Shown here piece after piece: positions 11,743-64,000 of a DNA stretch of 64,000 nucleotides. The stretch's first letter is position 1, and each line of letters begins with the position of its first letter. The DNA is from Pseudomonadota bacterium (GTDB lineage: Bacteria > Pseudomonadota > Gammaproteobacteria > Burkholderiales > Burkholderiaceae_C), in NCBI GenBank assembly GCA_021805825.1, contig JAJZEC010000011.1:1-64000 (forward strand). The letters are read 5' to 3'. The position numbers were made by a program, and so were the translations under genes. The notes beneath the pieces were generated by a model. It was not told the origin of the DNA. It did not search any database and worked only from the letters and a program-made list of their open reading frames with translations.

Positions 11743-12935
11743 GCCTTCGCGGCGCCCGCGTCGACCTGGTCTATTTCAACGCCGGCGGCGGGCATCGGGC
11801 GTCCGCCCTGGCCCTGCAGCAGGCCATCGCCGAATGCGGGCTGGACTGGCAGGTGCGCATGGTCAACCTCAGCGAGGTGCTCGACCCGGGCGGCACGCTG
11901 CGCCGGCGTACCTTCTCTCCGGAGGACTACTACAACCTGCGGCTGGCGCACGGACTGACCCTGGGCATGCGCACCGAACTGCGGGTGCTGCAGGGCCTGA
12001 TCCGACTGCTCCAGCCGACGCTGGTGCGCATGCTGCGGGAGCACTGGCAGCGCAGCCAGCCGGATCTGGTGGTATCGCTGATTCCCAATTTCAACCGCGC
12101 GCTGTACACCAGCCTGCGCGCCTGCCTGCCGGCCGTGCCCTACGTGACCGTGCTGACCGACCTCGCCGACCACCCGCCGCATTTCTGGATCGAGCCGGGG
12201 CAGCGGCAGCACCTGGTGTGCGGCAGCGAGCACGCGGTGCAGCAGGCACTGGCCGCCGGCTACGCGCCGCAGCAGGTGCATGCCACCTCGGGGATGATCC
12301 TCCGCCCGGAGTTCTACCGCGTCGCCGACGACTTCGATGTCGAGCGCGAGCGCCTGCGCCATGGGCTGGAGCCAGGCCGCCCCACGGCCGTGGTGATGTT
12401 CGGCGGGCATGGGGCACGCTCGATGCTGTCGATCGCCGAGCGGCTGGACGATCTGCAGCTGATCCTGCTGTGCGGCCACAACCAGCGGCTGGCGCAGCGC
12501 CTGCGCGAACAGCCGGCGCGCGCGCCGCGGCTGGTGCTGGGTTACACCACGCAGGTGGCCGAGGTGCTGCGCATGGGGGATTTCTTCATCGGCAAGCCCG
12601 GCCCGGGCAGCCTGAGCGAGGCGTTGCACCTGGGGCTGCCAGTGGTGGTCACGCGCAACGCCTGGACGATGCCGCAGGAGCGCTACAACACCCAATGGGT
12701 GCGCGAGCGCGGACTCGGCCTGGTGCTGCCTTCGTTCCGAAGCATTGCCGATGCCGTTCCACGGCTGCTGGCCGACCTCCCGGGCTACCGCGCGCGCGTG
12801 GCCGCGCTGCGCAACCGCGCGGTGTTCGAACTTCCGCCGCTGCTCGAACGCATCCTGCAGCAGGCGCTCGACGAAGCCGACGCCGCCATGGCGCCGGTGC
12901 TCAGTTCAGCAGCACGCGCCGCGCCAGCGCGCTGA
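11739..12935 (+). CDS. Glycosyltransferase related to MGDG synthase / MurG (GT28-like)
   Basis: Probable lipid or cell-wall glycosyltransferase of GT-B fold, 398 residues. The N-terminal half starts VDLVYFNAGGGHRASALALQ, the glycine-rich acceptor-side loop of MGDG-synthase and diacylglycerol glucosyltransferases; the C-terminal half has VMFGGHGARSMLS and the donor-sugar segment GKPGPGSLSEALHLGLPVVV. The ORF track shows it only as the tail of a 1307-residue frame; the true start is ATG 11739, overlapping the ATPase stop. Its place in an ABC-transporter operon suggests a glycolipid or surface-glycan role (inference). The 3' end overlaps the convergent gene by 35 bases. Confidence 0.85.
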   Translation: MSLRGARVDLVYFNAGGGHRASALALQQAIAECGLDWQVRMVNLSEVLDPGGTLRRRTFSPEDYYNLRLAHGLTLGMRTELRVLQGLIRLLQPTLVRMLREHWQRSQPDLVVSLIPNFNRALYTSLRACLPAVPYVTVLTDLADHPPHFWIEPGQRQHLVCGSEHAVQQALAAGYAPQQVHATSGMILRPEFYRVADDFDVERERLRHGLEPGRPTAVVMFGGHGARSMLSIAERLDDLQLILLCGHNQRLAQRLREQPARAPRLVLGYTTQVAEVLRMGDFFIGKPGPGSLSEALHLGLPVVVTRNAWTMPQERYNTQWVRERGLGLVLPSFRSIADAVPRLLADLPGYRARVAALRNRAVFELPPLLERILQQALDEADAAMAPVLSSAARAAPAR

Positions 12936-50850: not shown

Positions 50851-52845
50851 ATGCACGGTCTGGAAATCACCCTGTTGTTGCTCGTTGCCGCGGTTGCTGC
50901 GGTGGTGCTGTTTCGCCTGTTGCACCTACCGGCGCTGCTCGGCTACCTGGCGGCCGGCGCGTTGATCGGGCCCAACGCGTTGGGGCTGGCGCTGACCAAC
51001 AACCCGCAGGTGATGCAGCACCTGGCCGAGTTCGGCGTGGTGTTCCTGATGTTCACCCTCGGCCTGGAGTTCAGCCTGCCGCGCATCCGTGCCATGCGCG
51101 GCCTGGTGTTCGGGCTGGGCGCCGCGCAGGTGGCCTCGGTGCTCGTGCTGGTGCTGGGCAGCAGCCTGTTGCTGGGCTGGCTGCTTCCGGGGTGGTGGGC
51201 CCGCCCGCTGGCCTACGGCGTGGCGGCCGGCGGCGTGCTGGCGATGTCCTCCACGGCGATCGTGCTCAAGCTGTTGTCCGATCGCCTCGAACTGGAAAGC
51301 GAGCACGGGCGGCACATCATCGGCGTGCTGCTGTTCCAGGATCTCGCGGTCGTTCCGCTGCTGGTGCTGATTCCCGCGCTGGCCACTCCGGGGGCGGCGC
51401 CGGGCCGCACGCTGGCGCTGGCGGCGCTGAAGGCGGTGGCCGTGCTGGCGCTGATCCTGTTCGCCGGCGGCAAGCTGCTGCGCCCGTGGCTGCGCATGGT
51501 GGTGCGGCGCAAGTCCGACGAGCTGTTCATGCTGAACATGCTGCTGATCACCCTCGGCCTGGCCTGGCTGACCGAGGCGGCCGGGCTGTCGCTGACCCTC
51601 GGCGCCTTCCTGGCCGGCATGCTGATCGCCGAAACCGAGTTCCGCCATCAGGTGGAGGCCGACATCCGGCCGTTCCGCGACGTGTTGCTGGGCCTGTTCT
51701 TCATCACCATCGGCATGCTGCTCGACTGGCGCTATGTGCTGGGCAGCTGGTGGCTGGTGCTGTCGCTGGCGCTGCTCGCGCTGCTGCTGAAGGTGCTGCT
51801 GGTCGCGGGCATCGAGCGCCTGCGCGGAACCTCGGCGGGCACCGCGCTGCGCACCGCGCTGTGGCTGGGTCCCGCGGGCGAGTTCGGCATCGTGCTGCTC
51901 AACACCGCGGCCGCCTACCGACTGCTGCCGCCGCAGGTGGTCAGCCCGGTGCTGGCCGCGCTCGTGCTGTCGATGCTGGCCGCGCCGCTGCTGGCGCAGC
52001 GCATCGACGCGCTGGTGCTCAAGCTGGTGGCCAGCGAGTGGATGCGCGCCTCGTTGCAGCTGACCGACATCGCGCGCAAGACCATCGCCACCCAGCGCCA
52101 TGTGGTGATCTGTGGCTTCGGGCGCTGCGGGCAGAACCTGGCCCGCCTGCTGGAGGAGGAGGCCGTGGCCTATGTCGCCCTCGACCTCGACCCCGAGCGC
52201 GTGGCGCGCAGCGCCGCCGGCGGGCGCAATGTCGTGTATGGCGACGCCACGCGGCTGCACAGCCTGCAGGCCGCCGGCCTGGCGCGCGCCAGCTGCGTGG
52301 CCATCACCTATGTCGACAAGCGCTCGGCACTGCGCGTGCTCGACCTCGTGCAGCGCCACGCGCCGCGCCTGCCGGTGGTCGTGCGCACCCACGACGATGC
52401 CGCCTTCGACCAGCTACGCGCCGCCGGCGCCACCGAGATCGTGCCGGAGGTGCTCGAGGGTTCGCTGATGCTGGCCTCGCACGCGCTGGCCATCGTCGGC
52501 GTTCCGTTGCCGCGGGTGGTGGCGCGGCTGCGCGAGGCGCGGCAGCAGCGCTACGAGCTGCTGCGCGATTTCTTCCACGGCATCGACGATCCGTCGAGCA
52601 GCCTGGAGCAGGCCGCGCAGCCGAGGCTGCGCACCCTGACGTTGCCGGCCGAGGCGCATGCCATCGGGCAGGCCGTGGGGCAGATCGACCTGCAGGGAGC
52701 CACGCTGCTGCAGTTGCGCCGCCGGGATGGTCGCGTGCTGCCCGCCGAGGCGGCGCTGCGGCTGGCCGAAGGCGACACCCTGGTGCTGTCGGGCTCGCAG
52801 CCCCAGCTGGCCCTCGCCGAAGACCTGCTGCTCGGCGGCCGCTGA
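50851..52845 (+). CDS. Monovalent cation:proton antiporter-2 (Kef-type) with RCK domains
   Basis: 664-residue CPA2-family transporter. The membrane half (about residues 1-390) has LLGYLAAGALIGPNALGL, EFGVVFLMFTLGLEFSLPRIR, VLAMSSTAIVLKLLSDR, GVLLFQDLAVVPLLVL and LGAFLAGMLIAETEFRHQVEA. A TrkA-N/RCK domain follows (HVVICGFGRCGQNLARLL, about residue 415), then a TrkA-C domain at the end. Kef proteins export potassium in response to electrophile-glutathione adducts; the organism makes glutathione, but no KefF/G-type partner is adjacent, so regulation is uncertain. Confidence 0.9.
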   Translation: MHGLEITLLLLVAAVAAVVLFRLLHLPALLGYLAAGALIGPNALGLALTNNPQVMQHLAEFGVVFLMFTLGLEFSLPRIRAMRGLVFGLGAAQVASVLVLVLGSSLLLGWLLPGWWARPLAYGVAAGGVLAMSSTAIVLKLLSDRLELESEHGRHIIGVLLFQDLAVVPLLVLIPALATPGAAPGRTLALAALKAVAVLALILFAGGKLLRPWLRMVVRRKSDELFMLNMLLITLGLAWLTEAAGLSLTLGAFLAGMLIAETEFRHQVEADIRPFRDVLLGLFFITIGMLLDWRYVLGSWWLVLSLALLALLLKVLLVAGIERLRGTSAGTALRTALWLGPAGEFGIVLLNTAAAYRLLPPQVVSPVLAALVLSMLAAPLLAQRIDALVLKLVASEWMRASLQLTDIARKTIATQRHVVICGFGRCGQNLARLLEEEAVAYVALDLDPERVARSAAGGRNVVYGDATRLHSLQAAGLARASCVAITYVDKRSALRVLDLVQRHAPRLPVVVRTHDDAAFDQLRAAGATEIVPEVLEGSLMLASHALAIVGVPLPRVVARLREARQQRYELLRDFFHGIDDPSSSLEQAAQPRLRTLTLPAEAHAIGQAVGQIDLQGATLLQLRRRDGRVLPAEAALRLAEGDTLVLSGSQPQLALAEDLLLGGR

Positions 52846-53187
52846 GGCCCTCGGCAAGACCCGATTGCTGCGCCGCGAGGCGCCGATCGGGCCCGCTGCG
52901 GCAACGCCTGCGCGTTGTCCGCAAGTCACCGATGCTGCAACGCAGCGCCACTTGGGCGGCCACGCACGCCGGCGCGCATGGGTGTTTTCCCGGGTCGCAA
53001 CGCATTGACACGCCTTTCGCGGACGTGAATACTGATCGGCACACTGAACACGGTTCAACCTATTGAACTTCTGCGCGGTGTGCTGCAGTGGCAGTGCCTG
53101 GCGGTTTTCCACCCCGCTTCCGGCTGCGAGGCCGCGGGGATTTTCGATGGCGGCAGTGTCGGTCAAGGACACGACGAGGAGGAGACG
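52846..53187 (+). other. Intergenic region and leader upstream of the ABC/rhodopsin-like operon
   Basis: 342 bases between the Kef-type gene and the binding-protein gene. The first 150 bases show nothing clear. A promoter and nested inverted repeats occupy 53005-53068 (listed separately). From there to the GAGGAGGAG ribosome-binding site is an untranslated leader of about 145 bases. The in-frame upstream extension of the binding-protein ORF (to 53080) looks non-coding. Confidence 0.6.
53005..53068 (+). promoter_or_regulatory. Sigma70-type promoter with overlapping inverted-repeat operators
   Basis: A perfect -35 TTGACA (53005-53010) is separated by 17 bases from AATACT (53028-53033), a 4-of-6 match to the -10 consensus; transcription would start near 53040. 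Just downstream are two overlapping perfect inverted repeats sharing a half-site: TGAAC-ACG-GTTCA (53045-53057) and GTTCAA-CCTA-TTGAAC (53053-53068). Their position over the early transcribed region is that of repressor operators, LacI- or GntR-like in general appearance. The regulator is not encoded nearby in the window. Confidence 0.75.
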
Positions 53188-54357
53188 ATGAAACTGTGCA
53201 TGAGATGGTGCCTCTCGCTGGCGCTTCTGTTCGCGGTGTCCGGCTATGCGCTGGCCGCCGGGGTCGACGAGCTGCCGGCGAACATCCAGAAGCAGCTGTA
53301 TTCCAAGCAGATGCTCGACCCGCAGCAGCCGATAGGGCCCAGCGTGTACCGCAACTGGAAGGCCAAGAAGGGGCCGCCGTGGACCATCGGCTATGCGAGT
53401 TCCTATGCGGGCAACACCTGGCGTGCCGCGGCCATGGAACGTCTGCAGAAGGACATCATTCCCAAGTGGAAGAAGCTCGGGCTGCTGAAGAAGGTGATCA
53501 TCACCCAGTCGAACCTCAAGGACTCGGTGCAGATCCAGCAGATGCGTCAGCTGGTCGATGAAGGCGTCAACGCCATCATCGTCTGCTGCTCCAACCCGAC
53601 CGCGCTGAACGCGACGGTGAAGTACGCCTACGACCACGGTGTTCCGGTGTTCTCCTTCACCGGCTACCTGACCTCCCCCTACGCGGTCAACGCCTCGACC
53701 AACTACCAGCTCGGCGGCTACGACCTCGGGCGCTGGATGACCCAGCAGATCGGCGGCAAGGGCAACGTGCTCGACGTCGAGGGCATCCCCGGAACCTCGG
53801 GCTCGGATTCGCAGGATCGCGGCATCAAGGCCGGTCTGGCCTCCGCGCCCGGCGTGAAGATCGTCGGCGACGTGGCCGGCATGTGGACCGACCAGATCGC
53901 CCAGTCGGCGGTGCAGCAGTGGCTGGCGACCCACCCCGGCAAGCTCGATGGAATCGTCGTCCAGTCGGCGGCGGAGATGGGCGTGCTGCGCGCCATGGAG
54001 CAGTCGGGCCGCAAGATGATTCCGGTCAGCATCGGTGGCGAACTCGGCGCGCTGTGCTACTGGCGCAAGCACCCGGACTTCATCAGCGCGGCCTACCAGC
54101 TATGGCCTCCGGGGGATGAGATCGAACTGGCCTGGAACATCATGATGCGCACCCTCGAGGGCCAGGGCCCGAAGATCGAGTCGATCCTGGTGCCCCCGGT
54201 CAAGCTGAGCTACAAGGACGTCGCCGCCCGGCTGCCCGCCAACTGCGACGAGAACTCCGACGGCTGGTTCAACGTCGGCACCGCCCGCTGGGGAAGCCCG
54301 TCGTACCTGGACAACTTCTTCGTGCATCCGGCCGATCCGACGAAGTACAAGCCCTGA
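53188..54357 (+). CDS. Sugar-type ABC transporter periplasmic binding protein
   Basis: Periplasmic binding protein of the RbsB / type 1 fold, 389 residues. Signal peptide MKLCMRWCLSLALLFAVSGYALA, then alternating lobes: WTIGYASSYAGNTWRAAAMERL, QIQQMRQLVDEGVNAIIVCCSNPTAL, YDHGVPVFSFTGYL, NYQLGGYDLGRWMTQQIG and GTSGSDSQDRGIKAGL. The ATG at 53188 has a GAGGAGGAG site. No sugar kinase or catabolic gene is adjacent, so the ligand is open; it could be a sugar, nucleoside or other small molecule. First gene of the ABC/rhodopsin-like/flotillin/symporter cluster. Confidence 0.88.
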   Translation: MKLCMRWCLSLALLFAVSGYALAAGVDELPANIQKQLYSKQMLDPQQPIGPSVYRNWKAKKGPPWTIGYASSYAGNTWRAAAMERLQKDIIPKWKKLGLLKKVIITQSNLKDSVQIQQMRQLVDEGVNAIIVCCSNPTALNATVKYAYDHGVPVFSFTGYLTSPYAVNASTNYQLGGYDLGRWMTQQIGGKGNVLDVEGIPGTSGSDSQDRGIKAGLASAPGVKIVGDVAGMWTDQIAQSAVQQWLATHPGKLDGIVVQSAAEMGVLRAMEQSGRKMIPVSIGGELGALCYWRKHPDFISAAYQLWPPGDEIELAWNIMMRTLEGQGPKIESILVPPVKLSYKDVAARLPANCDENSDGWFNVGTARWGSPSYLDNFFVHPADPTKYKP

Positions 54358-54396
54358 GTCCCTGCATCCGACTCCAGCGCGCGTGATCCAGCTGCG

Positions 54397-56154
54397 ATGA
54401 GCTCCGCACCTTCCTCGACGAGCGCCGGCGCGGCCGGCGGCCAGCCGCAGGCGCATGCCTACGAGCTGCCGCGGCGCGCCGAGCCCGGCGCGGACGCCGC
54501 GCCGCCGGCCATCGTCGCCGGGGAGATTTCCGCGGTCAACGTGCGCAAGCATTTCGGGGTCACGCGCGCGCTGGACGGATGCACCTTCAACGCCCACATG
54601 GGCGAAATCCACGCCATCGTCGGCGGCAACGGCTGCGGCAAGAGCACCCTGGCCAAGGTGCTCTCGGGCGTGCTGCCGATCGACGGCGGCCAGGTCTCGG
54701 TGCTCGGCCACGTGCCGAGCACACCCCACGATGCCCGCGCGCTGGGCATCGCCACCGTCTTCCAGGAAGTGCTGGTCGCCGACGAATGCAGCCTGGTCGA
54801 CAACCTGTTCCTCGGTGCCGATCGGCTGTGGACCCGCGATCGCCCCGAACGCGACAAGCTGGCCGCGGCGCACGAACTCATGGCCGAACTGACGGGCCTG
54901 GAGATCGACGTCAGGACCCTGGTGGGAACGCTGCCGCTGAGCATCAAGCAGTGGATCACGATCGGGCGCGCGCTGCTGAGCAATCCCAGGGTGCTGATCC
55001 TGGACGAATCCTCCGCGGCCCTCGATCTGGACTCGACGCAGCGGCTGTTCCACAAGATGCGGCAACTGCGTGACCAGGGCTCGGCGATCCTCATCGTGAC
55101 CCACCGCATCGCCGAGCTGATCCAGATCAGCGATCGCGCCACGGTGCTGCGCGACGGCCGCGACGTGGGCGTGCTCGAGCGCCAGGACATCACCGAGCGC
55201 AACCTGCTCGACCTGATGACCGGCCGGCAGGCGCCGGCGCCGATCTCCCAGGGGCAGGCGCGCGAGGTGCTGCGGCACGAACTGGTGATGAAGACCAGCG
55301 GTCTGCGGCTGGGCCCACGCAGCGCGCCCATCGACTTCTCCCTGCACAAGGGCGAGGTGGTCGGCCTGACCGGGCTGGACGGCCAGGGTCAGGGCGAATT
55401 CATCCGCGCGCTGGCCGGCATCGAGCGCGCGCTGGGCGATGCGCCGACGGCGCGCGCCCGCGAGGGCAGCGGCCTCGCGGAAATCCGCGGCCTTCCGGAC
55501 GCGGCGCGCAACGGCGTGGTCTATGTCTCCGGCGACCGCAAGAAGGAAGGCATCTTCGCCAACCTGAGCATCTATGAAAACCTGCTGATGCCCCTGTATC
55601 GGCGCACCGCCCGCGCGGGCTGGCTGTCGGTGATCAACCGGCGCGCCCTGCAGAGCGTGTTCGACTGGGAGATCGAGCGCCTGGCGGTGCGCATGGGCGC
55701 GCGCAGCAACAAGATCACCTCGCTGTCGGGCGGCAACCAGCAGAAGGTGCTGATCGGGCGCGCCTTCGCGCTCAATCCCGACATCCTGCTGCTCAACGAC
55801 CCCGCGCGCGGCATCGACATCGGCGCGAAGGCCGAGCTGTACAAGCACCTCAGCGCCTTTGCCCAGCGCGGCAAGGCCGTGGTGTACCTGTCGAGCGAGA
55901 TCGAGGAATTCGTCGGTTTCTGCACCCGTGTGCTGGTGTTCCGCCACGGCACGATCTTCGGCGAATTCACCGGCACCGACATCCAGCCGGCGCGCATTCT
56001 CGAATCCATGTTCGGCCAGGCGGGCGCGAACCCGGCCGCCGTCGGCGACGAGCTCGGGGAGATCGACCACGAGCAGGCGCGGCTGCGCGAATTGCGCAAC
56101 CTGCCGCCGTGGATCCGCGCGGCGCGCCTGAGCGCTTCCGGAGAACAGGCATGA
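54397..56154 (+). CDS. Sugar-type ABC transporter ATPase with two nucleotide-binding domains
   Basis: RbsA/MglA-like double ATPase of 585 residues. Domain 1: Walker A VGGNGCGKST (residues 75-84), a shortened signature around LPLSIKQWITIGRAL, and Walker B VLILDESSA. Domain 2: degenerate Walker A GLDGQGQGEF, as usual for this family, a canonical signature LSGGNQQK (from residue 443), but LLLNDPARGID where the Walker B and catalytic glutamate are normally D-E; here they are N467-D468. A 40-residue low-complexity N-terminus precedes domain 1. The stop overlaps the first permease gene (ATGA). Confidence 0.9.
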   Translation: MSSAPSSTSAGAAGGQPQAHAYELPRRAEPGADAAPPAIVAGEISAVNVRKHFGVTRALDGCTFNAHMGEIHAIVGGNGCGKSTLAKVLSGVLPIDGGQVSVLGHVPSTPHDARALGIATVFQEVLVADECSLVDNLFLGADRLWTRDRPERDKLAAAHELMAELTGLEIDVRTLVGTLPLSIKQWITIGRALLSNPRVLILDESSAALDLDSTQRLFHKMRQLRDQGSAILIVTHRIAELIQISDRATVLRDGRDVGVLERQDITERNLLDLMTGRQAPAPISQGQAREVLRHELVMKTSGLRLGPRSAPIDFSLHKGEVVGLTGLDGQGQGEFIRALAGIERALGDAPTARAREGSGLAEIRGLPDAARNGVVYVSGDRKKEGIFANLSIYENLLMPLYRRTARAGWLSVINRRALQSVFDWEIERLAVRMGARSNKITSLSGGNQQKVLIGRAFALNPDILLLNDPARGIDIGAKAELYKHLSAFAQRGKAVVYLSSEIEEFVGFCTRVLVFRHGTIFGEFTGTDIQPARILESMFGQAGANPAAVGDELGEIDHEQARLRELRNLPPWIRAARLSASGEQA

Positions 56155-57599
56155 GTGCACAGGCGCAGGCGGCCGGGCTGTCGCAGCAGTCGACGGCCTC
56201 GGGCACCTATCTGTTCGTGCCCATCGTGCTGATGCTGGCGCTGCTCATCGTGGCCGTGCTGCGCACGCCGAACCTGGTGACCAGCTCGGGCATCGGAGGG
56301 GCGATCATCGTGGCCACCCCGCTGGTGCTGGCCACCTATGCCGTGATGGCGCTGGCGATCGCCGGTCGCGGCACCGTGGATCTGTCGATCGGCCCGCTGA
56401 TCGGCTTCATCAACGTGACCCTGGTTCAGCTGTACGGAGCCCACCTCATCGGCTCGCCGTTCAGCTTCTTCCTGTGGGCGGCCTTCGTCGGCGTGAGCTA
56501 CCAGGTGGCGATGGCGCTGATCATCATCTTCATCCGCGTGCAGCCGATCATCGTCTCCCTGAGCGGCTACCTCGCGCTGTCGGGGATCAACCTGGTCATC
56601 ATGGCCCGTCCCGGCGGCACGACGCCGGACTGGATGTCCAACTGGGGGCAGGGAACCTCCGTCTGGTCGCCGGTGCTGGTCGTGCTGGTGCTCAGCACGC
56701 TGGCCTGGCTGCTGTTCACCCTGACCCCGTTCTACGGCCACCTGCGCCTGATGGGATCGGACGAGCGCGCGGCCTATACCAGCGGCGTGCGCATCAACAT
56801 CGTCCGCCTGGGCGCGCACGTGATCGCCGGCCTGTACGCCTCGCTGGCGGCCATCACCTACACCTCGCTGATCGGCTCGGGCGACCCGACACAGGGCACC
56901 ACCTACACCCTGATCGCCATCACCGCGCTGGTGCTCGGGGGCGCCAGCCTGGCTGGCGGGCGCGGCGGCGCCATCGGTTCGCTGCTCGGGGCGCTGAACC
57001 TGTACCTGATCACCGCGGTGCTGGCCACCTTCAACTTCGGCGCGGTGCAAAGCTTCGTCACCGACCTGTCCTACGGCGTGGTGCTCGTGGCTTCGCTGCT
57101 GCTCACGCTGGCGCTGCCCTTCGTGCGCCGGGTGGTCGGCGAGTTGTCGCCGCTGCTGTTCTTCGTCATCTGCTCGCTGATCACGCTCGGGGTGATCCTG
57201 CACGCGACCTTCGACTACGCGCCGGCCGCCACCCCTGCCACCGTGGCCACCAAGGCCACCCCGCGGCTGCAGCCACCGCTGCATCCCGAACAATCGAGCC
57301 CGCGCCTGGCCGCGCGTGAAGAGACCCTGCCCTTCGAAGCCCCGGCCGCGGCGCGCGGCGCGCAGTCCGCCACCGCCTCCGGACTGGCATGGCCGGTCAC
57401 CGCGCTGATCCTGCTGCTGCTGGCCGCCACCCTGGCGCTGCGCATCGCCCCGGTGCAGGCGCGAGCCGCTCCGGGTCTGGCGCCGCTCGTCCACCTGGTC
57501 ATCGCTGCCGTGATCCTGCTCGGCATCTTCACCGTGTCGGGTCATGCGCCGTGGGCCGCCGGGCCTGCGTTGCACGTGCACCGGGAGGCAGGGCGATGA
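56151..57599 (+). CDS. ABC transporter permease (RbsC-like) with C-terminal membrane extension
   Basis: Sugar-type ABC permease, 482 residues. The core (about residues 1-355) has AIAGRGTVDLSIGPLIGFIN, VQPIIVSLSGYLALSG, LRLMGSDERAAYTSGVRIN and LVLGGASLAGGRGGAIGSLLGAL, all BPD_transp_2 hallmarks. Usual members are 320-350 residues; here an alanine/proline-rich linker and two further helices (TALILLLLAATLALRIA and HLVIAAVILLGIFTV) extend the C-terminus. ATG 56151 overlaps the ATPase stop, and the stop overlaps the second permease start, so the three are translationally coupled. Confidence 0.9.
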   Translation: MSAQAQAAGLSQQSTASGTYLFVPIVLMLALLIVAVLRTPNLVTSSGIGGAIIVATPLVLATYAVMALAIAGRGTVDLSIGPLIGFINVTLVQLYGAHLIGSPFSFFLWAAFVGVSYQVAMALIIIFIRVQPIIVSLSGYLALSGINLVIMARPGGTTPDWMSNWGQGTSVWSPVLVVLVLSTLAWLLFTLTPFYGHLRLMGSDERAAYTSGVRINIVRLGAHVIAGLYASLAAITYTSLIGSGDPTQGTTYTLIAITALVLGGASLAGGRGGAIGSLLGALNLYLITAVLATFNFGAVQSFVTDLSYGVVLVASLLLTLALPFVRRVVGELSPLLFFVICSLITLGVILHATFDYAPAATPATVATKATPRLQPPLHPEQSSPRLAAREETLPFEAPAAARGAQSATASGLAWPVTALILLLLAATLALRIAPVQARAAPGLAPLVHLVIAAVILLGIFTVSGHAPWAAGPALHVHREAGR

Positions 57600-59059
57600 G
57601 CGCTGCGCAGCCCGATCCGGGCGCCCAGCCGGGCGCAGCCCAGACCTCCGCGCCCGCCGCGCAGGATGCTGCCGCGACGCGTACGCCCGGCACCCTGCTG
57701 AAGTGGCTGGGCCTGCCGATCGCCCTGCTCATCGCGGCGGTCGGCTTCGGCCTCGGCCTGGGCCAGGGCCTTCCGGTGCAGGAGGTCATCTTCTACACCG
57801 TGGCCACGTTCGCGCTGGTGACCTGGGTGTGGCGCTACTACACCCAGCATGGCGGCGCGGCCCGACCGGGCAGCGGTGCGGCCACCGAGGCCGCCGCCGC
57901 CCAGCGCGCCAGGCCCAGGCCTGTGCGGGCCTTCCTGCTGCGCTGGCGCGCGGTGCTGATCGGCATCCTGCTGGTGCTCGCGGTGTTCGGCATCGCCTCG
58001 GTCAGCGTGAGCGGCTTCTTCAACGCCCTGAACATCATTTCCGCGCTCGTTCTCATCGCGCTGCTGATCTTCTCGGCGTTGATGGGGCGCTTCGTGCAGG
58101 CCAACAAGAGCGCCTTCATCGGCCTGGTCGTGCTGGTCGGACTATTCGTCATCGGCTCGCTGGAAATCGACGGATTCATCTCCCCCGGCAACCTGCGCTC
58201 GATGCTGCTGTTCGCATCCTTCCTCGGTCTGGCCTCGGTCGGCCAGACCCTGGTGGCGCTGCTCGGCGGCCTCGACCTGTCGATCCCCTTCGTCATCGGC
58301 GCCGCCAATGTCGGCCTGCTCTACCTGATCAGCCTGGGCATGCCGTCCTGGCTGGCGGTGATCGTGGTGCTGGTGATCGGCGCGCTGATCGGCCTGGTCA
58401 ACGGATTCCTCAGCTTCCGCCTGCAGGGCCAGGCTCTGATCCTGTCGCTGGGCGTCGGATTCGCGGTGTCCGGCAGCACGCAGATCGTGACCAGCCTGGG
58501 TTCGAGCTTCGCCGGCAACGTGTTCGGCCAGGTGCCGCACTGGCTGAGCAACCTGGCGGCGATGAACGGCAGCACCTTCGGGCTGCCGATTCCGCCGGTG
58601 ATCCTGGTGTGGATCGCGGTGGCCATCGGGCTCATCCTCGGCATGCGCCATACGGCCTACGGCCGCTACGTCTACGCCCTCGGCGGCAACCGCACCTCGG
58701 CCAGCCGGCTGATGATTTCCGAACGGCGCTACTGGATCGCGGCCTACGCCGTCAGCGGCGTGTCCTCGGCGCTGACCGGCGCGCTGCTGCTGGGCTGGAG
58801 CGGCGGTGGCTTCATCGGCGTCGGTCAGCCCTACCTGTTCACCACGCTGGCCGCGGTGGTCATCGGGGGCACCTCGCTGCTCGGTGGCGCCGGAGGCTAC
58901 GGCTTCACGGTCATCGGCGTGCTGGTGCTGCAGGTGCTGACCTCCTTCCTGGTGGGCATCGGGCTGACCTTCCAGTGGCAGCAGTTCATCTTCGGCCTGC
59001 TCATCCTGCCGATGGTCGCGCTGTATGCGCGCTCGCCGCATATCCGTACCCAGGTCTGA
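57596..59059 (+). CDS. ABC transporter permease (RbsC-like) with N-terminal membrane extension
   Basis: Second permease, 487 residues. An extra N-terminal region (about 1-110) carries two helices (LGLPIALLIAAVGFGLGLGQG and EVIFYTVATFALVTWVWRY) and an alanine-rich linker. The BPD_transp_2 core follows: ASVGQTLVALLGGLDLSIPF, VIGALIGLVNGFLSFRLQGQ, MRHTAYGRYVYALGGNRTSA and VVIGGTSLLGGAGGYGFTVIG. With the first permease it would form a heterodimer. ATG 57596 overlaps the first permease stop. The rhodopsin-like gene follows about 100 bases later. Confidence 0.9.
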   Translation: MSAAQPDPGAQPGAAQTSAPAAQDAAATRTPGTLLKWLGLPIALLIAAVGFGLGLGQGLPVQEVIFYTVATFALVTWVWRYYTQHGGAARPGSGAATEAAAAQRARPRPVRAFLLRWRAVLIGILLVLAVFGIASVSVSGFFNALNIISALVLIALLIFSALMGRFVQANKSAFIGLVVLVGLFVIGSLEIDGFISPGNLRSMLLFASFLGLASVGQTLVALLGGLDLSIPFVIGAANVGLLYLISLGMPSWLAVIVVLVIGALIGLVNGFLSFRLQGQALILSLGVGFAVSGSTQIVTSLGSSFAGNVFGQVPHWLSNLAAMNGSTFGLPIPPVILVWIAVAIGLILGMRHTAYGRYVYALGGNRTSASRLMISERRYWIAAYAVSGVSSALTGALLLGWSGGGFIGVGQPYLFTTLAAVVIGGTSLLGGAGGYGFTVIGVLVLQVLTSFLVGIGLTFQWQQFIFGLLILPMVALYARSPHIRTQV

Positions 59060-59081
59060 GACCCGGGCGCATCACGTCATC

Positions 59082-59165
59082 ATGGGGAGCCAAATGCAAG
59101 TCCAAGCAAGCGCTGGCCGCCGCATCGAGCGCGGCGCGGCAAACCTTCCGCGGGGCCGGCGATGA
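59082..59165 (+). CDS. Possible 27-codon leader ORF coupled to the rhodopsin-like gene
   Basis: An ATG at 59082, with a second in-frame ATG at 59094 preceded by GGGGAG, opens a short frame ending at a TGA that overlaps the next gene's start as ATGA. The peptide is basic and shows no recognisable family. It may only be a chance frame, but the overlap mirrors the other couplings in this operon. Confidence 0.25.
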   Translation: MGSQMQVQASAGRRIERGAANLPRGRR

Positions 59166-59866
59166 GCGCGGCCGGAGTGTTGCAGGCCACCGACGTGGTG
59201 GGCGGATCCTTCCTGCTGCTGCTGGCGGCGACCGCCGCCACCGCGGTGCTGCTGCTGCTGGGCACCGGCTGGGCGCAGCACAAATGGAAGCTCCCGGTGG
59301 CCCTGGCCGGGGTGGCGATGCTGGTGGCCGCGCTGCTGTACCTGCAGGCCGACGCGATCTGGCTGTCGGTGCACCAGATGCCGGTGATCTACCGCTACGT
59401 CGGCTGGATGATCATCATGCCGCTGCAAGTCCTGGCCCTGTACTTCTTCATCCAGGTGCAGGCGAACCTGTCCTACGGACTGTTCTGGCGGCTGCTCGTG
59501 GTCTCGCTGGTCATGGTGCTGGCGCGCTACATGGGCGAGGTGGGTTTCTTCTATCCCACGCTGGGCTTCCTGATCGGCCTGGCGGCCTGGCTGTACATAC
59601 TCGGCGAGGTCTTCTTCGGCCGCATGAGCGAGGTCAACGGCCGCAATGGCTCGCATTCGAGCCAGACCGCGTTCTTCTGGCTGCGCCTGATCGTCAGCGT
59701 GGGATGGGCCGTCTATCCGCTGTGCAATTTCATCGGCAGCTTCGCCGGAGGCATCGACGAAGGCAAGCTGACGATCATCTACAACCTGGCCGACCTGGTG
59801 AACCTGGTCGCGTTCGGGCTGATCGTGCTGACCGCCGCGGTGCGGGGTTCGGCATCGGCACGTTGA
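59162..59866 (+). CDS. Proteorhodopsin-like seven-helix protein lacking the retinal lysine
   Basis: 234-residue, seven-helix membrane protein homologous to type-1 (microbial) rhodopsins. Conserved: RYVGW (R78, W82), RYMGEVGF in helix D, GWAVYP in helix F (W182, Y185, P186) and IYNLADLVN in helix G with D211. Aligned to proteorhodopsin by memory, the retinal-binding lysine of helix G (K231) is leucine L215 (codon CTG 59804-59806). The proton acceptor D97 is G81, the donor E108 is A92, and H75 is leucine. No other lysine lies in the helix G core. A covalent retinal Schiff base is therefore impossible; the fold and pocket aromatics remain. Function unknown; position suggests partnership with the ABC importer or flotillin. 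Confidence 0.88.
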   Translation: MSAAGVLQATDVVGGSFLLLLAATAATAVLLLLGTGWAQHKWKLPVALAGVAMLVAALLYLQADAIWLSVHQMPVIYRYVGWMIIMPLQVLALYFFIQVQANLSYGLFWRLLVVSLVMVLARYMGEVGFFYPTLGFLIGLAAWLYILGEVFFGRMSEVNGRNGSHSSQTAFFWLRLIVSVGWAVYPLCNFIGSFAGGIDEGKLTIIYNLADLVNLVAFGLIVLTAAVRGSASAR

Positions 59867-59941
59867 GTTCCAAGGTGACGGCCATGCGCATCGGCGACGC
59901 CTTGCCCCTGGCTCTGCATTGACCCCGAAAAGGATCGAAGT

Positions 59942-61672
59942 ATGAACGGCTCCGACATCATAGCGATCGTCATCCTGGTCGCGATCGTCATCGCGGTCGC
60001 TGTCTACCTGCTGCACTGGCTGTACCGAAGGTCGTCGAAGGACGTGTCCTTCGTGCGCACCGGACTGGGCGGCGAGAAGGTCGTGATGGGCGGCGGCGCC
60101 TTCGTGCTGCCCATCGTGCACGACGTGACCCCGGTGAGCATGAACACCCTGCGCCTGGAGGTGCGGCGGGCACGCGAGCAGGCCCTGATCACCCGCGACC
60201 GCATGCGCGTCGACGTCACCGTGGAGTTCTTCGTGCGGGTGATGCCCCAGGAGGAATCGGTGGCCGCGGCCGCGCGTACCCTGGGCCAGCGCACGATGAA
60301 CCCGGAAAGCCTGAAGGATCTGGTGCAGGGCCGCTTCGTCGACGCCATGGGCCTGGTCGCCGCCAAGATGACCATGGAGGAGATCCACGAGCATCGCGGG
60401 CGCTACATCAGCCAGGTGCGCGAGCAGGTGGCCGACGCCATGACCCACAATGGCCTCGAGCTCGAGGCGGCCTCGCTGACCGGCCTCGACCAGACGGACA
60501 TGAAGCTGTTCAACCCCTCGAATGCCTTCGACGCCGAGGGCCTGACGCGCCTGACCGAGGAAATCGAGTCGCGCAAGAAGAAGCGCAACGACATCGAGCA
60601 GGACACCGCGGTGGCCATGCGTCGCAAGAATCTGGAGTCCGAGCAGCTGACGCTGAGCATCGCCCGCGACAGCGAGTACTCGCGCCTCGAGCAGGAGCGC
60701 GAGGTCGCGGTGCGGCGGGCGCAGCAGCGCGCCGAAATCGCCCTCGAGAAGGCCGAGCGGGAGCGTGAGACCGAGGAGGCGCAGATCCGCGCCGCCGAGG
60801 AAGTCGAGAAGGCGCGCATCCGCCAGGAGCGGGCGATCGAGGCGGCGCGCATCGAGCGTCAGCTGGAGATCGAGCGCAAGGAACTGCAGCGCCGGCGCGA
60901 CGTGGAAATCGAGGACCAGGAGCGCATGATCGCGGTGGCGCAGAAGGCCAAGGCGCAGGCCGAGGCGCAGGCCATCGCCGAGGGCGCCAACGCGCAGGCG
61001 GTACAGGCGCGGGAGAAGGTGGTGTCGGTGCGCGAGCGCGAGATCGCCGAACGGCGCAAGCTCATCGAGCTGCTGCTGGCCGAGCAGGAGGCCGAGCGCG
61101 AGGCCATCAAGCTGCGTACCATCGCCGCGGCCGAGAAGCAGGCCGCCAGCGAGCGCGCGGCCGCCGAGCGCATCACCGCGGAAGCGGCGCAGGTTCGCTA
61201 TGCCGTCGATGCCGAGGGCCAGCGCGCCCTCAACGAAGCGGAGAACCTGCGCTCCGACGCCAGCCGGCGCAGCGGCCTGTACCGCAAGCTGCTGGAAAAG
61301 CTCCCCGACATCATCCGCGAAAGCGCCAAGCCGATGGAGCGCATCGACTCCATCAAGATCCTGCAGGTGCAGGGCATGCCCGGACTCAGCGGGGGCGCTG
61401 GCGGCGGTGGGGACGGCGCCTCGGGCGAAGCCGCGGGCGGCGGTGCCAACCTGGCCGACCACGCGGTCAATGCCGCGCTGCGCTACCGCGTGCAGGCACC
61501 CTTCGTGGAGGAAATGCTCAACCAGATCGGCATCGCGCCGGGCTCGGTGTCGACCCTGGGCAACCTGATGCACGGCGAGGGCAAGGGACTGGCCGACATC
61601 GTGGCCGCCAAGCAACTGGGCAGCCTGGCGGCGGGCTCCGCACCTGAGGGCGACGCCGAATCGCGTCACTGA
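59942..61672 (+). CDS. Flotillin-like SPFH-domain membrane scaffold protein
   Basis: 576-residue protein of the flotillin/YqiK group. One N-terminal helix (DIIAIVILVAIVIAVAVYLLHWLY, residues 4-27), then the SPFH domain (VRTGLGGEKVVMGGGAFVLPIVHDV, ITRDRMRVDVTVEFFVRV, about residues 35-190). A very long charged coiled coil rich in Glu/Arg/Ala spans about residues 195-420. The C-terminal part has RKLLEKLPDIIRESAKPMERIDSIKIL, a glycine-rich linker, and a final helical tail. Flotillins oligomerise and organise membrane microdomains. AAAGGA precedes ATG 59942, 75 bases after the rhodopsin-like gene. Confidence 0.9.
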   Translation: MNGSDIIAIVILVAIVIAVAVYLLHWLYRRSSKDVSFVRTGLGGEKVVMGGGAFVLPIVHDVTPVSMNTLRLEVRRAREQALITRDRMRVDVTVEFFVRVMPQEESVAAAARTLGQRTMNPESLKDLVQGRFVDAMGLVAAKMTMEEIHEHRGRYISQVREQVADAMTHNGLELEAASLTGLDQTDMKLFNPSNAFDAEGLTRLTEEIESRKKKRNDIEQDTAVAMRRKNLESEQLTLSIARDSEYSRLEQEREVAVRRAQQRAEIALEKAERERETEEAQIRAAEEVEKARIRQERAIEAARIERQLEIERKELQRRRDVEIEDQERMIAVAQKAKAQAEAQAIAEGANAQAVQAREKVVSVREREIAERRKLIELLLAEQEAEREAIKLRTIAAAEKQAASERAAAERITAEAAQVRYAVDAEGQRALNEAENLRSDASRRSGLYRKLLEKLPDIIRESAKPMERIDSIKILQVQGMPGLSGGAGGGGDGASGEAAGGGANLADHAVNAALRYRVQAPFVEEMLNQIGIAPGSVSTLGNLMHGEGKGLADIVAAKQLGSLAAGSAPEGDAESRH

Positions 61673-61704
61673 TCGGCCGGCCGCAGCACCAGCAGGAGAA
61701 CCTC

Positions 61705-62136
61705 GTGACCACGCTGCATGCCACGCACAGGCGCCTCGCGGTAGCCAGCAACTGGGCGCTGTGCGGATCCTTCGGGCTGTGCCTCATCCTTTCGGGATTC
61801 GCGCTGGCGCTGCCCCAGGCGATCCTCGGGGGTTTCGCGCTGCTGGTGGCGGCCTTCATCGCCCATCTGGTGATCAACCGACTGTTCCGCCAGTCCTTCA
61901 CCACCGGCGAGGTCGTCACCGGTTTCGTGGCCTTCGGCGTCGGCGTCGCCAGCTTCCTGGCGACGGCCCTCGCCGGATCCGGGGTCGGGCGCACGCAATT
62001 CGATGCCGGGCTGGCTGGATTCGCCTCGCTGGTGCTGTGCTTCCTCGCGTACCTGGTCACCAAGTTCGGCCTCAAGGGGGCGTTCTCGCAGTTCCACGGC
62101 AGCTCCGGCGCGCGGGAGGACACCCTTGCCAGCTAA
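61705..62136 (+). CDS. Four-helix membrane protein of unknown function
   Basis: 143-residue protein with four predicted helices: WALCGSFGLCLILSGFALAL, AILGGFALLVAAFIAHLVI, VVTGFVAFGVGVASFLATAL and AGFASLVLCFLAYLVTKFGL. I do not recognise a family. The start is GTG 61705 with GGAGAA six bases upstream. It lies 32 bases after the flotillin-like gene and overlaps the symporter gene by 11 bases, so it is probably co-translated with the symporter and may be an accessory subunit (inference). Confidence 0.75.
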   Translation: MTTLHATHRRLAVASNWALCGSFGLCLILSGFALALPQAILGGFALLVAAFIAHLVINRLFRQSFTTGEVVTGFVAFGVGVASFLATALAGSGVGRTQFDAGLAGFASLVLCFLAYLVTKFGLKGAFSQFHGSSGAREDTLAS

Positions 62137-64000
62137 GCTTGTTTGGCTCTGCGCCTTCGTCGGCGCCTATGCGGTGTACTGCCTGTACTGGGGCGTGACC
62201 GCCGCGCGCCTGGGGCGCGGCGCCAGCGACTTCCTGCTCGCCGACCGCAGGCTGCCGCCGTGGGTGTTCGTGGTCATGGCCACCGCGATGAGCTTCTCGG
62301 GGTGGTTCTTCCTCGGGCAGCCGGCGCTGGTGTTCCGCGACGGCCTGGCCTTCCAGGAAACCGCGCTCGCCGCGGTGGCGATTCCCCTCGTCGGGGTGCT
62401 GTTCCTCAAGCGCCAGTGGTTGCTCGGCAGGCGCTACGGACACACCTCGGCGGCCGACATGCTGGGCCATTATTTCGGTGGCGAGACCATTCGCCTGGTC
62501 GTGATCCTGATCGGCCTGTGCTTCGCCGTTCCCTTCGTCGGCATGCAGCTGGGCGCCACCGGTTCGCTGCTGCAGCACCTGTCCGACGGCGCCATCGACC
62601 CGACCCTGGCGATGTGGATGCTGGGTTTCGTGCTGTTTCTCTACGTGTGCTTCGGCGGCATGCGCGGCGCCGCCTATGCCGGCGTGCTGCAGGGGCTGCT
62701 GCTGGCGGTCGGCCTGGTGGCCATCGGGGTGTACGCGCTGGAGCAGATCGGCGGCCTGCGGCCGCTGATCGAGGCCCTGGCACGGCTGGGCCATGGTGGC
62801 GCCGGCGCCTGGGGGGCGACTGCCGACGGCGACAGCGCCTACCTGTCGATTCCCGGGGTGGTGCAATTCACCGCGGGCCTGGGACGGGGCAATCCGGTGG
62901 GCGGCATCTGGACGACCTCGATGATCCTCAGCTACGTGCTGGCGCTGATGGGCCTGCAGGCCTCGCCCGCTTACACCGTCTGGGCCCTGGGCTGCGGCAG
63001 CGTCAAGGGCTTCGCGGCGCAGCAGGTGTGGGCGTCGGCGGCGGTCATGGGGCTGATCCTGCTCGTGTTCCCGGCGCTGGCCGGCCTGGGTGCGCAGTTT
63101 CTCGGCGCCGCGCCGGCCGGCAGCGCTCCGGCGCTGGCGCATGCGCTGCCGGTGCTGGGCGCCGGGCACGCGATGCGGCTGGATGCACTCTACCTGGCCG
63201 CGGTGGCGCGCACCGAACCCTGGTTCGCCGCGCTGCTCGCGGTGTGCGCGCTGGCCGCCATCCAGGCCGTCACGGCAGCTTTCGCCAGCGCGAACGCGAC
63301 GGTGTTCGCGCGCGACATCTGCCAGCGCTACTTCGATCCGCAGGCCGACGACCGCAGGATCGTCCTCTACGCGCGAGTGGGTATCGGGCTGACCCTGTTG
63401 TCGGCCCTGTTGCTGGCCACCTATGCCCCGGGGGCGCAAGCCGCCCTCGGCGTGCTGGCGCTGTCGCTGGGGCTGCAGCTGCTGCCGGCGCTGGCCGCGG
63501 TGTGCTGGCTGCCGTGGATCACGCGGCCGGCGGTTCTGCTGGGCCTGTTCTTCGGCATGGCCGCGGTGGTGCTGACCGAGCCCCTGGGCGGCGCCATCAC
63601 CCACTTCGTCGGTTTCGATCTGCCCTGGGGCCGCTGGCCGTGGACCATCGACTCGGCGGGCTGGGGGATTTTCGTCAACGTCCTGGTGTGCCTGGTGATT
63701 TCCTGGATCAGCCACCGCGACGACGAGCGCGCCCATCGCCAGAAGTTCCATGACTTCCTGCGCGGCTTCAGCGCGCCGGGCCAGCGCCGCCTGCGCGCGC
63801 TGGCCTGGGCGATGACCCTGGCCTGGCTGTTCTTCGCCGTCGGCCCGGGGGCGCTGATCGGCAACGATGCCTTCGGCGCGCCCGGCGCCGGAGCGGGTCA
63901 CTGGGTGCTGGGCGTGCCGTCGCTGTGGGCGTGGCAGCTCATCTGGTGGGTGCTGGGGGTGCTGGTGATCTGGTTCCTCGCCTACAAGATGGAACTGTCG
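62126..64000 (+). CDS. Sodium:solute symporter family protein, 3' end missing
   Basis: Large SSS-family secondary transporter; 625 codons are visible with no stop before the window ends, which is why the ORF track omits it. The frame opens with TTG 62126 behind GGGAGGA (62114-62120), overlapping the end of the four-helix gene. Recognisable segments: GASDFLLADRRLPPWVFVVM, ATAMSFSGWFFLGQPALVF, YGHTSAADMLGHYFGG, FLYVCFGGMRGAAYAGVLQG, and the late FASANATVFARDICQRY. A dozen or more helices. The many ORFs listed here in other frames (e.g. 62143-63753) are shadows. Substrate unknown. Confidence 0.88.
   Translation, partial: MPAKLVWLCAFVGAYAVYCLYWGVTAARLGRGASDFLLADRRLPPWVFVVMATAMSFSGWFFLGQPALVFRDGLAFQETALAAVAIPLVGVLFLKRQWLLGRRYGHTSAADMLGHYFGGETIRLVVILIGLCFAVPFVGMQLGATGSLLQHLSDGAIDPTLAMWMLGFVLFLYVCFGGMRGAAYAGVLQGLLLAVGLVAIGVYALEQIGGLRPLIEALARLGHGGAGAWGATADGDSAYLSIPGVVQFTAGLGRGNPVGGIWTTSMILSYVLALMGLQASPAYTVWALGCGSVKGFAAQQVWASAAVMGLILLVFPALAGLGAQFLGAAPAGSAPALAHALPVLGAGHAMRLDALYLAAVARTEPWFAALLAVCALAAIQAVTAAFASANATVFARDICQRYFDPQADDRRIVLYARVGIGLTLLSALLLATYAPGAQAALGVLALSLGLQLLPALAAVCWLPWITRPAVLLGLFFGMAAVVLTEPLGGAITHFVGFDLPWGRWPWTIDSAGWGIFVNVLVCLVISWISHRDDERAHRQKFHDFLRGFSAPGQRRLRALAWAMTLAWLFFAVGPGALIGNDAFGAPGAGAGHWVLGVPSLWAWQLIWWVLGVLVIWFLAYKMELS

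Follow-up and report, generated by a model that had tools for sequence, protein, structure and literature searches.

Which regulator controls the promoter ahead of a gene cluster that encodes a rhodopsin without its retinal-binding lysine, and what could the regulator tell us about the inducer? We addressed this question in a window of 64,000 nt (contig C47:1–64000; the contig has 72,516 bp and the cluster runs on to 70158). As the first-pass annotation had described, a -35 hexamer TTGACA (53005–53010, + strand) is followed after a 17-nt spacer by the -10 hexamer AATACT (53028–53033, +) and by two perfect inverted repeats that share a half-site, TGAAC-N3-GTTCA (53045–53057) and GTTCAA-CCTA-TTGAAC (53053–53068). 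By composition, both the promoter pattern and the repeats are near chance: TTGACA-N17-AATACT is the only sigma-70-like match in 52600–62200 (shuffles give 0.6 ± 0.8), TTGACA-N16-18-nAnnnT is found once on the + strand of the window versus 0.35 expected, and a pair of palindromes (5-N3-5 and 6-N4-6) with one half in common is found once versus 0.32 expected per 64 kb (dinucleotide shuffle of the 64 kb). It is conservation that makes the block real.

The genes downstream of the promoter, all on the + strand, start with a periplasmic substrate-binding protein (SBP; 53188–54357; Peripla_BP_4, PF13407, 3.9e-37; no NCBIfam equivalog cut-off was reached), followed by a double-ABC ATPase of the sugar (CUT2) type (54397–56154; profile matches), an ABC permease (56151–57599; PF02653), a second ABC permease-like protein (57598–59059; no Pfam match, position kept in the orthologs), a flotillin-associated rhodopsin (FAR) without the retinal-binding lysine (59162–59866), a flotillin (59942–61672; PF15975 and PF01145), a 143-aa membrane protein conserved in the cluster (61705–62136), and a sodium/solute symporter (62003–64000 as the longest ORF; the true start lies later). 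The distal genes are, in order, those of the symporter, an Fe-ADH, a 133-aa protein, an alpha/beta hydrolase, a lactonase, an SSADH and an IclR-family regulator, the last of these lying beyond the window (contig positions 69391–70158; PF09339 and PF01614). The SSADH passes the curated cut-off and is 67% identical to the SSADH of A. fabrum C58, and the Fe-ADH is 55% identical to that of the C58 blc operon. The lactonase has the metallo-beta-lactamase fold, and its nearest relatives are AHL lactonases (for example 2r2d and GcL); it is AiiB/AhlS-like, not AttM-like, and scores below the AhlS family cut-off. The hydrolase (L056:12858–13712; 85–99%) and the 133-aa protein (12411–12812; 79–94%) are conserved above most of their neighbours in all orthologous clusters but that of G276, and both also travel on rhizobial plasmids; they probably form the enzymatic core of the pathway.

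Seven genomes share the order SBP, ATPase, permease, permease, rhodopsin, flotillin and small membrane protein. G159 belongs to the same genus as the window genome (SBP 93% identical), and L050 is more distant (78%). Upstream of the SBP gene, both carry an identical TTGACA, a 17-nt spacer, a -10, and then TGAAC-, GTTCA- and TGAAC-like boxes, with box spacings of 8 and 11 bp identical to those of the window; the sequence further upstream of the promoter block is not alignable. In G159 the N4 palindrome carries a paired change, from GTTCAA..TTGAAC to GTTCAG..CTGAAC. Chance palindromes beside a real promoter could be argued from the 0.32 nested pairs expected per 64 kb, but this reading is hardly credible given the conserved spacing, the paired base change and a register match to 15 plasmid BlcR-type sites (described below). 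The boxes are thus kept in two of the six orthologous operons, which also have the IclR gene, and are absent in the four without it, so that the refutation test of the first-pass annotation (no conservation before orthologous operons) came out divided.

Of those four operons, the three in G174, G062 and G206 (L052, L053 and L054) carry TTTGCA repeats and a divergently oriented LacI gene before the SBP gene; in front of the same operon, then, the regulator has been swapped, with IclR in one group and LacI in another. The fourth cluster, in G276, has neither this gene nor these repeats; the BlcR-like gene of G276 (1.2e-42) lies elsewhere in the genome and is preceded, at about 100 bp, by a box array. 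The divergent LacI genes would favour a dimeric repressor of the LacI/GntR/TetR families, as originally proposed for the window repeats, but the promoters beside them lack TGAAC/GTTCA boxes, the two strong LacI genes of the window genome have no matching palindrome within about 1.5 kb on either side, and both window palindromes lack the central CG that is usual in LacI sites. LacI control fits only G174, G062 and G206, and we regard it as very unlikely at the window promoter. Our survey of regulator families covered IclR, LacI and SorC; for SorC/DeoR-type regulators, which also use a palindrome plus direct repeat, a search of six genomes gave no PF04198 match.

The best candidate is instead the IclR-family protein encoded in the cluster itself. 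Its nearest solved relative is 3mq0, the repressor of blcABC (PDB; 1.9e-66, with the next at 3.7e-21). With BlcR of C58 as the query, it is the window genome's best match, 48 orders of magnitude ahead of the next paralog (1.3e-66 versus 1.2e-18), the counterparts in G159 and L050 are found at 5e-66 and 3e-63, and nothing better than 9e-24 is found in the three LacI genomes. The protein and BlcR are best matches in both directions, and the protein has the IclR HTH and the C-terminal ligand domain. Its gene has the same position in the clusters of G159 and L050 and is found in none of the other four. Linkage to SSADH, Fe-ADH and lactonase genes is complete in the window genome and in G159; the L050 cluster includes the lactonase only, with Fe-ADH and SSADH outside the cluster, so the link between regulator and GHB pathway is not a strict one.

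BlcR-like regulators elsewhere turned out to have the same type of site. In fifteen plasmid records (including Agrobacterium, Rhizobium, Sinorhizobium, Hoeflea, Martelella, Pararhizobium, Falsirhodobacter, Thioclava, Methylorubrum, Pantoea and Cupriavidus), GTTCA-N6-TGAAC-N3-GTTCA-N6-TGAAC-like arrays are found in the intergenic regions beside BlcR-like regulators, and each array outscored all, or almost all, of the 300 shuffled versions made from its own sequence. The four-box spacing was derived from the window together with the first four loci on plasmids and then scored on further loci. The window array scores 26/28, as compared to 20–27 in the 15 plasmid sites, and none of its 300 shuffles was as good (these shuffles are mononucleotide, the p floor is 0.003, and related plasmids are not independent). 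Judged by its letters, then, the pair of overlapping palindromes is boxes 2+3 and 3+4 of a four-box array. Boxes 2 (TGAAC, 53045–53049), 3 (GTTCA, 53053–53057, the half-site common to both palindromes) and 4 (TGAAC, 53064–53068), all read on the + strand, are intact and supported by conservation and by the plasmid-site register; box 1 (53034–53038, +), placed by register with the 15 plasmid sites, reads GATCG for GTTCA, which deviates at two of the five bases and is just as weak in G159 and L050. In C58, the array GTTCACTCTAATGATTCAAGTTCAATTAGTTGAAC occupies the gap between blcR and the gene for SSADH, and TTGACA precedes box 1 by 28 nt (29 nt in the window). A -35 at 27–30 nt before box 1 is also seen in R. 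leguminosarum, S. meliloti, Hoeflea, Martelella, A. pusense, Thioclava, G159 and L050, and was not found at about 28 nt in the Cupriavidus, Pararhizobium and Methylorubrum sites. Since both arrays and TTGACA distances match, several of these promoters are laid out like that of the window in -35, -10 and boxes. The first-pass description of the locus as a strong promoter closely followed by repressor-type operator boxes, ahead of the rhodopsin-like cluster, is supported.

The layout also bears on how the site would be occupied. Alternative or cooperative binding had been suggested from the shared half-site, and this is published for the IclR family, in which three boxes of alternating direction join two IclR motif types (Suvorova and Gelfand 2021, PMC8222616). 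A simple dimer, as the first-pass annotation had it, fits less well: members of the IclR family bind as dimers or as tetramers, and the best reading of the site is a tandem of two palindromes (boxes 1+2 and boxes 3+4) with centres 19 bp apart, within the 18–22 bp of IclR tandem sites (PMC8222616). When the 3.35-Mb window genome was searched for the same repeats, the exact three-box pattern occurred once, at the promoter, a uniqueness that, beside the conservation, sets the block apart from chance. One-mismatch matches to the single palindrome number 39, versus 18 for the reversed-pattern control; genome-wide single-palindrome and three-box matches are mostly at about control level, and we claim no wider regulon.

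The same boxes at the promoters of known regulators' targets also speak against the repeats acting in the transcript, as an attenuator or as alternative 5'-UTR hairpins. Pairing in RNA would be feasible for either palindrome, and the leader holds a second hairpin, CCCCGC..GCGGGG, that is common to G159. However, the folding of the leader is no stronger than that of shuffled sequence (z -0.32), the leader has no Rfam match, and L050 keeps the boxes but lacks this hairpin, so we consider action in RNA highly improbable. A riboswitch or other structured leader was likewise dismissed, with no Rfam match and no fold excess. The hairpin itself (about 53113–53141, followed by ATTTTCG to 53147) is possibly an attenuator or a remnant.

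A more serious alternative is that another IclR paralog controls the operator, in which case the inducer would be unrelated to GHB. The window genome has roughly 4–7 IclR proteins, any of which could bind because BlcR is not the only regulator with this type of operator: the box array is also found beside diverse IclR proteins in Bartonella, Methylorubrum and Pseudochrobactrum, and before a second, unrelated IclR gene in G159. The latter site (L124:6509–6543, i.e., G159:C21:140508–140542) is a perfect four-box site directly before that gene, which is probably autoregulated; the array therefore marks the IclR family rather than BlcR alone. Moreover, the cluster regulator gene is not adjacent to the operator but lies 16 kb downstream. 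Against this alternative, the cluster operator and the BlcR-like gene are found together in three genomes (window, G159 and L050; two of the three come from one genus) and are both absent from the other four clusters, though all seven genomes have other IclR genes. From this co-occurrence and from co-location we assign the operator to the cluster's own BlcR-type protein as the likely repressor, and consider control by another paralog improbable, if still worth bearing in mind.

The identity of the regulator could reveal the inducer, an idea that is supported by these results. BlcABC converts gamma-butyrolactone (GBL) to succinate by way of GHB and succinate semialdehyde (SSA), and GBL, GHB and SSA all relieve BlcR (PMC3907764); BlcR acts as a tetramer and is released by GHB or GBL (PMC6402643). 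With SSADH, Fe-ADH and an AHL-type lactonase in the cluster, a GHB/succinate-semialdehyde-like lactone product is predicted as the inducer, i.e., a lactone-derived hydroxy-acid or semialdehyde. In the proposed mechanism, the four-box tandem-palindrome site would begin right behind the -10 and reach about +28. The BlcR-like protein, encoded last in the cluster, would bind it as a tetramer, with one dimer on each of the two palindromes (19 bp apart), and block RNA polymerase; the lactonase product would release it and switch on the transporter, rhodopsin, flotillin and enzymes together, presumably on a single long transcript. Overall, we think it likely that the locus comprises the sigma-70 promoter and the BlcR-type operator for an operon of lactone/hydroxy-acid uptake and catabolism, which also encodes the lysine-less FAR and flotillin and is under the cluster's BlcR-like repressor.

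A likely repressor gene in the same cluster hints at when the light-blind rhodopsin, flotillin and transporter are switched on. The rhodopsin has 9r21 as its best match (7e-54), and the flotillin gene starts 75 nt downstream, so that a proteorhodopsin-like protein is encoded next to a flotillin, as in FAR. In the alignment, the retinal lysine of the FArhodopsin 9r21 corresponds to Leu in the window protein, the counter-ion site is occupied by Gly, and each of the six aligned orthologs has Leu or Gln in place of the lysine; a search of the window genome at E<=0.001 gave no second rhodopsin. According to PMC10308929, the retinal lysine is lost in most freshwater FArhodopsins, and alpha/beta hydrolases, Fe-ADHs and a symporter are listed in FAR clusters. 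Our literature search for FArhodopsin or flotillin together with a lactonase returned no paper describing such a link. We tentatively suggest that the lysine-less FARs of this lineage may serve lactone/hydroxy-acid nutrition, not light, as a BlcR-type-induced part of the uptake and catabolic membrane machinery; equally speculative is a set of co-induced partners consisting of a dedicated ABC importer, a flotillin scaffold and lactone-to-succinate enzymes. The repressor type and a shortlist of inducers (gamma-butyrolactone, GHB, succinate semialdehyde and related hydroxy-acids) make the role of these FARs testable by asking what induces the cluster and whether growth needs the rhodopsin.

Among the closest known systems is BlcR (AttJ)/blcABC of C58, which has an IclR-family regulator (47% identity), boxes in the same register after TTGACA, and SSADH, Fe-ADH and lactonase genes. 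The two differ in that boxes 1, 3 and 4 are strong and box 2 is weak in C58 (boxes 2–4 strong and box 1 weak in the window), blcR is divergent and adjacent whereas the window regulator is the last gene of the cluster, the C58 operon has no ABC transporter, rhodopsin or flotillin, and the lactonases come from different subfamilies. The Hoeflea, Martelella and Pararhizobium plasmid modules (L097, L099 and L108) also have a BlcR-like gene with the box array, adjoining homologs of four cluster proteins (hydrolase, 133-aa protein, SBP and ATPase; 58–82% identity) and an AttM-type lactonase, so we conclude from these gene neighborhoods that the regulator and the transporter are probably an old pairing. 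In these modules, however, the regulator is divergent and adjacent, and no rhodopsin or flotillin is seen in the stretch examined. The sites of PcaU, PobR and HmgR (among 32 orthologous groups, PMC8222616) likewise have three alternating boxes, implying alternative dimerisation, but the window half-site is GTTCA/TGAAC, and BlcR is not named in the main text of that paper. The operator type itself is already known; we found no report in the literature of its putative link to a blind-rhodopsin cluster. As for the FAR clusters, the passages of PMC10308929 on cluster content describe neither BlcR-type control nor a lactonase; shared with the window are a rhodopsin beside a flotillin, the lysine lost, and a symporter, an alpha/beta hydrolase and an Fe-ADH.
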